Part shown: one piece after another, positions 43,987 through 46,254 of the stretch | Numbering within the stretch: position 1 is the first letter of the stretch | How the letters are laid out: every line of letters starts with the position of its first letter | Assembly (NCBI RefSeq): GCF_015240255.1 | Contig: NZ_CP061205.1 | Coordinates: 1,881,501-1,945,500 of the forward strand | Reading direction: 5' to 3' | Source: Kordiimonas pumila | GTDB taxonomy: Bacteria > Pseudomonadota > Alphaproteobacteria > Sphingomonadales > Kordiimonadaceae | Length of the DNA: 64,000 bases | The notes under the pieces: model-generated | What the model was told of the DNA's origin: nothing | What the model saw: the letters and a program-made list of their open reading frames with translations, nothing else | Databases searched by the model: none | Made by a program: the position numbers and the translations under genes

Positions 43987-44002
43987 CTTGCCCTGAAAAC
44001 TG

Positions 44003-44031
44003 GCGCTTTCTTTTTTAAGAAAGCGCTTTTT
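44003..44031 (+). terminator. Rho-independent terminator before rnhB
   Basis: GCGCTTTCTT (44003-44012) and AAGAAAGCGC (44017-44026) form a perfect ten-base stem with a TTTT loop and a T5 tail. It ends the small-gene unit, so rnhB probably has its own promoter in the following 57 bp. Confidence 0.92.
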
Positions 44032-44087
44032 CTTACTTGCTTGGCAAAAAGAAGATAAAGTTTTATTGCTTGTTTGAGGGGCTATTT

Positions 44088-44741
44088 ATGAATGATTTAT
44101 TCACATCCGCAGGTATTGCAATAACCACTGGCCCAGACTGGTCTGCAGAAATGTCTATTCTCTCTGAAAATGGCGGATTAGTTTGTGGTATTGATGAAGT
44201 AGGGCGAGGCCCTCTTGCAGGCCCCGTGGTTGCGGCTGCGGTTATATTGGACCCAGAGAAAATTCCCCAAGGTCTAAATGACAGTAAAAAATTAAGCGAA
44301 AAAAGACGTGCATATCTTTATGCACTTATAAAAGAAACTGCAATTGCGGTTTCTGTGGCCGAAGCAAGTGTCGCTGAAATTGATGATATTAATATTTTGC
44401 AGGCGTCTATGCTGGCTATGCGTCGTGCAATGGGGGGGCTTTCTGTAAGGCCGTCCTGTGCACTTGTAGATGGTAACCGCGACCCAAACCTTAGAATACC
44501 CACTCGTACACTTGTTAAAGGGGATAGCAGGTCACTTTCAATCGCAGCGGCCAGTATTATCGCAAAAGTTTTTCGTGACGAGTTGATGAAAAAGTTAGCA
44601 AAAGACTATCCAGAGTATGGGTGGGGCAAAAACGCAGGATATGGTGTTGCATATCATTTGGCTGCACTAAAGATTGTGGGTGTTAGTCCTCATCATCGAC
44701 GTTCTTTTTCACCGATTCGCAATATTTTAAGTGAAGAATAG
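44088..44741 (+). CDS. rnhB: Ribonuclease HII
   Basis: The start ATG 44088 has GAGGGG seven bases upstream; a longer frame from 44037 would begin beside the terminator. The 217-residue protein has the signature GIDEVGRGPLAGPV with catalytic D36 and E37, the LNDSKKLSEKRR segment near residue 62, and further acids in ALVDGN and SIIAKVFRD. It removes misincorporated ribonucleotides from DNA. ccrM follows in the same direction, an order also seen in other Alphaproteobacteria. Confidence 0.95.
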   Translation: MNDLFTSAGIAITTGPDWSAEMSILSENGGLVCGIDEVGRGPLAGPVVAAAVILDPEKIPQGLNDSKKLSEKRRAYLYALIKETAIAVSVAEASVAEIDDINILQASMLAMRRAMGGLSVRPSCALVDGNRDPNLRIPTRTLVKGDSRSLSIAAASIIAKVFRDELMKKLAKDYPEYGWGKNAGYGVAYHLAALKIVGVSPHHRRSFSPIRNILSEE

Positions 44742-44754
44742 CTAACAAACTATT

Positions 44755-44803
44755 GATTCATATAAAAGAATCACTTGACCTCGATTCGATTTCGAATCAT
44801 GAT
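44755..44803 (+). promoter_or_regulatory. ccrM promoter with clustered GANTC methylation sites
   Basis: Four GANTC sites lie within 44 bp: 44755-44759, 44768-44772, 44783-44787 and 44794-44798. A fifth lies at 44714-44718 inside the end of rnhB. A candidate promoter, TTGACC at 44775-44780 and CATGAT at 44798-44803 (17-bp spacer), has two of the sites in its spacer and two just upstream. CcrM methylates GANTC, so the gene's product can mark its own promoter. Confidence 0.75.
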
Positions 44804-44851
44804 CACCTCTGTAATTCGCTGAAAACTTATCATAATATCAGCTCAAAATGA

Positions 44852-46003
<1,152 letters not shown>

Positions 46004-46016
46004 TCCATAGATGATA

Positions 46017-46077
46017 GAAATACAGATGCCCATCTGTATTTCCTCCGTTGCCGCCCTCTGCCCAGAGGGCGGCATTT
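46017..46077 (+). terminator. Two stacked hairpins after ccrM
   Basis: GAAATACAGATG (46017-46028) pairs with CATCTGTATTTC (46031-46042), and then GCCGCCCTCTG (46050-46060) pairs with CAGAGGGCGGC (46063-46073) followed by ATTTTC. The second, GC-rich stem looks like the terminator; the first is unusual in being perfect for twelve bases. Confidence 0.85.
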
Positions 46078-46095
46078 TCATAACGCTGTAGAGTG

Positions 46096-46254
46096 TTATT
46101 TTTTTGCAATTATATAAATTGCGTGAATAATCCCCGGCAGGTACCCACATATTGTCAATAGAATATTAAGCCAGAAGTGTAGCCCAAGCCCAACTTGTAA
46201 GAATACTCCGACAGGCGGCAATATGATGGCAAATATAATACGAATGATATCCAT
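46096..46254 (-). CDS. YqaE/Pmp3 family small membrane protein
   Basis: The 52-residue frame on the minus strand begins MDIIRIIFAIILPPVGVFLQ and continues with GLHFWLNILLTICGYLPG, ending IIAKK. This matches the Pmp3/YqaE family (PF01679) over its full length, with two membrane helices. AGGAG precedes the ATG by seven bases. These peptides are linked to membrane potential and salt or stress responses in yeast, plants and bacteria. It is convergent with ccrM, whose terminator hairpins end about 20 bases from its stop. Confidence 0.93.
   Translation of the reverse strand: MDIIRIIFAIILPPVGVFLQVGLGLHFWLNILLTICGYLPGIIHAIYIIAKK

Follow-up and report, generated by a model that had tools for sequence, protein, structure and literature searches.

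Among the closest described systems is the GANTC methyltransferase gene ccrM of Caulobacter crescentus, which is most probably itself affected by how GANTC is methylated (PMC3973325); this and the other papers cited below were accessible in part, and our statements about them refer to those parts. The same source calls CcrM an orphan methyltransferase and suggests that its homologs are orphan in all Alphaproteobacteria. Caulobacter ccrM is activated by CtrA (PMC3667746, PMC2877005). According to Brilli et al., rhizobial ccrM genes often have CtrA sites, and in the accessible part of that study the GANTC counts gave no derivable methylation control of ccrM (PMC2877005). GANTC sites between -35 and -10 are described for the GcrA/CcrM sigma-70 promoters of Caulobacter (mipZ, ctrA P1, podJ P2 and ftsN), which have one or two of them (PMC3667746, PMC4287350), at about -29 in ctrA P1 and at -24 in podJ P2 (PMC4287350). 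The gcrA promoter of A. tumefaciens is dense in GANTC (6 in 250 bp), and the accessible text describes no fixed geometry there (PMC11514494). Promoter methylation also controls the methyltransferase genes of CfrBI, AhdI and LlaDII; in CfrBI, a restriction-modification system, the result is repression, and methylation lowers the binding of RNA polymerase to the methyltransferase promoter (PMC12707154).

The window analysed here, a stretch of 64,000 nucleotides from Kordiimonas pumila (G000:C1:1881501-1945500), belongs to a genome of one contig (4.04 Mb). It contains ccrM (44885-46003, forward strand, ATG start at 44885), the gene for a GANTC adenine methyltransferase, downstream of rnhB, the gene for ribonuclease HII (44067-44741, forward strand). 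The product of ccrM matches the NCBIfam model NF050803 with an E value of 1.9e-189 and 628.9 bits, which is under the model's curated cut-off of 830. Among Pfam domains, N6_N4_Mtase and RAMA scored over the cut-off, and UPF0020 was marginal with no stretch over threshold. The closest named CcrM match, from Kordiimonas gwangyangensis, is 83% identical.

A preliminary description of this DNA had reported five GANTC sites clustered on the ccrM promoter. All five are present (44714, 44755, 44768, 44783 and 44794), with the last four spanning 44 bp, and it is these four (44755-44798) that lie on the promoter, inside the 143 bp between the stop of rnhB and the start codon of ccrM. The fifth, at 44714-44718, is coding; it falls within the rnhB frame, in P-I-R codons near the C terminus, and was rejected as a part of the promoter. 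The candidate promoter consists of a -35 element TTGACC (44775-44780, forward strand), a gap of 17 bp and a -10 element CATGAT (44798-44803, forward strand). It is the sole promoter-like match in 44600-44900; since shuffles of the region already give 0.8 such matches on average, the case for this promoter rests on comparison and not on the match from the promoter scan.

The first two sites lie upstream of the -35 element, as had been proposed: site 1, GATTC (44755-44759), at about -55 with TTGAC as the -35, and site 2, GAATC (44768-44772), directly 5' of the -35. Two further sites had been assigned to the spacer. This is correct for site 3, GATTC (44783-44787, about -27 to -23); site 4, GAATC (44794-44798, about -16 to -12), instead reaches into the -10 hexamer, whose first base is also the last base of the site. 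The ccrM promoter thus contains the target of its own enzyme, as in the autoregulated CfrBI-type methyltransferase genes, and, by position and conserved geometry, GANTC lies inside a sigma-70 core promoter, as in promoters controlled by CcrM methylation. The likeness to CfrBI has its limits, since ccrM has several sites per promoter and these recur at the same positions over a bacterial class. In the Caulobacter GcrA/CcrM promoters, too, GANTC lies between -35 and -10; the window's ccrM differs from them in having four sites, of which one shares a base with the -10. With the A. tumefaciens gcrA promoter it has in common the dense GANTC on a cell-cycle gene, although the gene is another one.

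We then compared the stretches 5' of ccrM in the own genome and its nearest relatives, 30 distinct regions in all (the near set, from which the two copies L084 and L094 had been dropped and of which two loci, L109 and L110, belong to different families of the same order). In most rows the alignment reads TTGATTC-N8-GAATC-n-CTTGAC-n3-GANTC-n6-GANTC-AT. Sites 1 to 4 are intact in 26, 29, 26 and 29 of the 30 regions, respectively, TTGAC is aligned in 29/30 with the -10 GANTC 14 bases on, and every one of the 30 regions has at least three GANTC with starts within 45 bp. The mean frequency of the majority letter was 0.95 for the GA and TC letters of the sites, 0.79 for the four N positions and 0.55 for other intergenic positions. 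Relatives that keep the promoter without the sites, an outcome named beforehand as a refutation of the earlier interpretation, did not occur in this set. Judged from these alignments, the four sites on the ccrM promoter are under selection.

The sites could be ordinary contacts of a transcription factor or of RNA polymerase, for example in the inverted repeat TGATTC-N8-GAATCA located 5' of the -35, in which case methylation would be irrelevant. The N and the spacing of sites 1 and 2 are indeed kept in most of the 30 relatives (N is T in 27/30 at site 1 and A in 29/30 at site 2). At sites 3 and 4, in contrast, N varies while GA and TC stay: it is T in 16, A in 9, G in 4 and C in 1 region at site 3, and C in 23, A in 6 and T in 1 at site 4. 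The argument that the methylation target and not an exact sequence is retained therefore holds for sites 3 and 4 only. The cluster also persists where its members move, as in L107 and L095 with differently placed spacer sites, and in L098 and L100, where one site is added; furthermore, as shown below, the two core sites recur over the class with different N and different flanks. Taken as a whole we consider ordinary protein contacts an improbable explanation. The preliminary description had proposed a methylation-state switch or feedback on ccrM; because the sites are kept in near relatives, feedback of CcrM on ccrM is a fair inference.

The arrangement is more than a local one: its promoter geometry exists in many Alphaproteobacteria. 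Our first set comprised 110 loci, namely the best 80 matches to this CcrM in the genome collection and 30 from the own genome and relatives, a composition by which the set leans to near CcrMs. We kept 108 of the loci, including the near copies L060/L062, L086/L087, L098/L100 and L101/L102 and a single record labelled Rhodobacteraceae (L044). The core pattern TTGAC-N1-5-GANTC-N5-7-GANTC occurs upstream of 52 of these 108 ccrM genes. It was found 0 times in 1,244,715 control strand-bases from the same loci outside those stretches, antisense included, and 100 dinucleotide shuffles of the 108 regions gave 0.01 occurrences on average and 1 at most. Counted from TTGAC, GANTC stands at +8 in 25 cases and at +19 in 29 in the near set (36 TTGAC, 30 loci), and the respective numbers for the other Alphaproteobacteria are 23 and 30 (74 TTGAC, 78 loci). 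The same positions are occupied in 0/889 (+8) and 1/889 (+19) of the control TTGAC. With looser spacing, both sites were present in 56 of the 108 loci, the -10 site only in 8, the spacer site only in 11 and neither in 33.

With TTGAC as the -35, the +19 site spans -16 to -12, and the -10 hexamer accordingly begins with the C of this site. Two letters of this -10 that were no part of the search are constant or nearly so in the promoters found: A(-11) in 29/29 near-set, 30/30 other and, in the independent set described next, 36/36 promoters, and T(-7) in 29/29, 28/30 and 36/36. The +8 and +19 sites recur across the class with differing N and flanks. An extra GANTC often starts 15 bp before TTGAC (11 in the 78 other loci, 17 in the 94 independent ones); the near set instead has its upstream sites 7 and 20 bp before TTGAC.

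An independent draw of 142 genomes over the class, with about one per family, gave 102 with a CcrM match of E 1e-60 or better. Upstream stretches of ccrM were obtained from 97 of them, after leaving out the own genome (G000), an earlier relative (G032), two matches without the N terminus (G140, G115) and one at a contig end (G216); three more (G230, G211, G133) were dropped as already present in the first set, which leaves 94. The geometry was found in 56/94, with both sites in 35, the -10 site only in 6 and a loosely defined spacer site only in 15. The core pattern is present in 29 of the 94 regions and an exact +19 site in 36. On the antisense strand of the same set, 0 of 55 TTGAC had a GANTC at +8 or +19. 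The remaining 38/94 are without the geometry, and 13/94 upstream regions have no GANTC at all.

How often such a cluster should arise by chance depends on the background, which had been taken as one GANTC per 256 bp. This is too high, since the window holds 67 GANTC compared with 156.5 expected from dinucleotide shuffles. Over 1.664 Mb of the genome (41%) the density is 1.02 per kb; in the first 864 kb, coding DNA has 0.97 and non-coding DNA 1.39 GANTC per kb, with genes defined by a simple longest-frame rule. At 1.02 per kb and with uniform placement, 0.015 clusters of four in 44 bp are expected in the 1.664 Mb sampled. Within this sample, four GANTC in 60 bp occur at two places, one being the ccrM promoter and the other L116:12981-13031; the promoter core with two GANTC occurs at ccrM alone. 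The second place (G000:C1:612981-613031) is the densest cluster of the sampled genome, with five GANTC in 51 bp beside TTGACA. It lies in the gap after a frame of 905 aa that by eye resembles a conjugation-type ATPase, and its geometry is unlike that of ccrM. The existence of this second dense cluster is the one point in favour of a chance origin of the ccrM cluster. Against it stand the expectation of 0.015 and the recurrence in the relatives and in the 94 independent genomes, and with the core counts, the shuffles, the genome background and the independent set we reject chance or composition, which retains a negligible probability.

The phylogenetic distribution of the geometry was analyzed on a quick, unrooted CcrM tree of 108 rows, in which 39 of 105 inner branches are unresolved. 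On this tree the geometry needs 8 changes, compared with 28.5 in shuffles (0/500 as low). It is absent from all 19 rows of a starred Rhizobiales clade and from all 6 Caulobacter-type rows (Caulobacter, Hyphomonadaceae and Hellea), and it is present in 75/83 of the rest, or 45/53 when the near set is excluded. By "Rhizobiales clade" we mean these 19 rows; the geometry does exist in some records that carry the label Hyphomicrobiales (L021, L057, L073). Positive rows carry labels such as Sphingomonas, Novosphingobium, Croceicoccus, Kordiimonas, Sneathiella, Micavibrio, Reyranella and Pelagibacteraceae, together with many Rhodospirillaceae. In the Rhizobiales clade, 15/19 regions are without GANTC in 360 bp (e.g. 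L034, L050, L052, L053, L072 and L077). The three Caulobacter loci have 4, 4 and 5 GANTC in the scanned stretch, none of them in the TTGAC geometry, and at most 1, 2 and 3 GANTC starts within 45 bp (300 bp upstream of the projected start; 207 bp for L042). For these three loci, the earlier impression that the ccrM promoter of the window is denser than that of Caulobacter was therefore right.

We also searched for CtrA sites as TTAA-N7-TTAA or as [GT]TAACCAT, which we take to be the CtrA half-site. None occurs in the 360 bp upstream of the window's ccrM; the search used exact patterns, which weaker sites may escape. Exact matches to the half-site were found in 9/19 regions of the Rhizobiales clade, in 1/6 Caulobacter-type regions and in 2/83 others. 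This distribution, on an unrooted tree, leads us to infer that CtrA control of ccrM is derived and the geometry ancestral. A wider reading, which we offer tentatively and with somewhat less than even confidence, is that in a large part of the Alphaproteobacteria the promoter of ccrM would be a methylation sensor, with GANTC at about -27 and at -16 overlapping the -10, that is read directly by sigma-70 RNA polymerase, independently of GcrA and CtrA; this arrangement would be ancestral, and the CtrA-driven ccrM of Caulobacter and Rhizobiales a later replacement.

The main rival is activation that depends on GcrA. Here a complex of GcrA and sigma-70 would read both core sites in their methylated form, the one in the spacer as well as the one at the edge of the -10, and would help a weak -10 to open; the feedback of CcrM would be positive, with a timing set by the GcrA level and the replication fork. 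GcrA has a preference for methylated GANTC, and on ctrA P1 in its fully methylated state it protects the stretch between -35 and -10; mutation of GANTC lowered several Caulobacter promoters by 60-80% (PMC3667746) and ftsN down to 14% (PMC3885167). Caulobacter starts with GANTC between -35 and -10 are switched on 40-60 min into the cell cycle (PMC4287350). The genome of the window does encode GcrA (PF07750 over the cut-off, G000:C1:10883-11263). However, the geometry does not go together with a detectable gcrA. In the independent set, 14/22 genomes in which no GcrA passes the Pfam cut-off have the geometry, as do 42/72 genomes in which one does (Fisher p 0.80), so across these genomes the promoter architecture shows no dependence on GcrA. 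Among genomes at least 90% complete and without detectable GcrA, 13/15 have the geometry and 10/15 both sites; one of the 15 (G106) has a partial GcrA match under the cut-off (E 2.5e-4), and G191 has a doubtful one (E 0.03). In the first set, GcrA was over the cut-off in 51 of 57 selected genomes, and the six without it (L008, L016, L028, L051, L057 and L073, all metagenome assemblies) have the geometry in 6/6. Since the geometry is kept without detectable GcrA, which distinguishes it from the GcrA/CcrM promoters of Caulobacter, GcrA is probably not essential for it, with the caveat that the Pfam model may miss divergent GcrA proteins. The GcrA-dependent alternative accordingly appears rather unlikely to us.

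Eight genomes of at least 95% completeness have CcrM and no GcrA over the cut-off (G170, G183, G239, G242, G163, G217, G182 and G218), and the same holds for three Reyranella-type metagenome assemblies (L051, L057 and L073); genomes that have CcrM and lack GcrA may be more frequent than expected. The own gcrA gene has three GANTC 220-250 bp upstream (L113:10632-10662). We did not count these as a cluster on a gcrA promoter because they lie within a reading frame on the opposite strand.

Our preferred reading is that ccrM transcription responds to methylation by CcrM of its own core promoter, in a self-limiting loop; we give it a probability of roughly 0.5, and the effect of methylation, its sign and its timing are all putative. 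The sigma-70 promoter of ccrM would carry CcrM targets in its core, in the spacer and at the edge of the -10, and in this genus two more 5' of the -35. CcrM would methylate these sites in its own promoter, the methylation state would alter the use of the promoter by RNA polymerase, and the output of ccrM would track the methylation state of its own locus. Full methylation would weaken the promoter, and the hemi- or unmethylated promoter, as it would exist after passage of the replication fork or when CcrM is scarce, would be stronger. GcrA may tune the promoter and is probably not required. The methyl groups of the -10 site would be at -15 on the top strand and opposite -13, beside the place where strand opening begins, and those of the spacer site at -26 and opposite -24. 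A timing based on closeness to the terminus was considered and rejected: the GC skew of the sampled stretches puts the origin at about 0.55 Mb and the terminus at about 2.45 Mb, and ccrM, located at 1.926 Mb, has about 72% of this distance behind it, which is late and not terminal.

The self-limiting sign seems the more likely one because the geometry is kept without detectable GcrA and because a methyltransferase must not run away. There are precedents for repression by methylation: the A. tumefaciens gcrA promoter loses activity on methylation, and does so in E. coli as well (PMC11514494), and the CfrBI methyltransferase gene is repressed through methylation of its promoter (PMC12707154). 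Several observations count against the self-limiting loop. In Caulobacter, promoter GANTC and GcrA mostly activate (PMC3667746, PMC3885167, PMC4287350). The -10 with its C at -12 looks weak, as if an activator were needed, and the constant N of the two upstream sites may reflect a protein site instead of a methylation site. Furthermore, the geometry is absent in 38/94 genomes of the independent set and 33/108 loci of the first set, and 15/56 positives have the loose spacer site only. In a further alternative the CcrM protein would bind the cluster and repress its own transcription whatever the methylation state, like some methyltransferases of restriction systems. The sites are clustered and kept, and regulatory methyltransferases that bind an operator are known (PMC12707154). 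These are reported to use a separate N-terminal region, as in SsoII in the accessible text, whereas in CcrM only the methyltransferase domain, RAMA and a marginal UPF0020 match were found; we regard direct repression by the protein as very unlikely.

The position of the promoter can also be viewed from the transcript. With a start deduced from the -10, the ccrM 5' leader would be 44810-44884 (forward strand). It includes the ribosome-binding sequence GGGACGGAG (44869-44877, forward strand), of which GGGACGG is invariant in 16 aligned leaders, and folding places a stem-loop at 44814-44868, just 5' of this sequence. In the near set the letters of the inverted repeat differ between species and the pairing is largely kept. 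For 26 of the 30 leaders the repeat could be counted (the other 4 were not delimitable or too short), and in 22/26 it was equalled by at most 12 of 200 letter shuffles, the exceptions being L003, L095, L096 and L097. Because MAFFT misplaced the 3' arms, a structure named by hand was counted on seven distinct aligned leaders. In these, 86.7% of the cells pair (0/500 shuffles as high) and 7/15 pairs are changed on both sides (1/500 shuffles), and further pair types are no more numerous than in shuffles (375/500). Of 13 leaders folded singly, L002 and L108 were no more stable than shuffles, and a consensus fold of 12 leaders by RNAalifold reached only -2.2 kcal/mol. A structured ccrM leader is thus possible, and would fit a transcript that starts just downstream of CATGAT. 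Folds in which the first letters of the leader pair with the ribosome-binding sequence were discounted because most of these letters lie upstream of the presumed start. A search of 44000-46200 against Rfam gave no match at the gathering score and three below it, with E values up to 1. One of the latter, CyaR/RyeE at 45987-46079 (forward strand) near the end of ccrM (25.3 bits, gathering score 47, E 0.096), is probably chance or a terminator hairpin.

What is already known, in the accessible text of the sources, is the suspected methylation feedback on Caulobacter ccrM. The fixed geometry over the class, the overlap with the -10 and the retention without gcrA appear to be new; they were not found in the literature searched.

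CcrM is a core enzyme of the cell cycle, and the setting of its level is known mainly from Caulobacter, where it is driven by CtrA. If the reading preferred here is true, many members of the class would rely on another, simpler circuit, with the methylation of one promoter reporting both on replication and on the supply of the enzyme. The ccrM promoter would then provide a clean case for deciding if m6A next to the -10 affects RNA polymerase directly or solely by way of GcrA.
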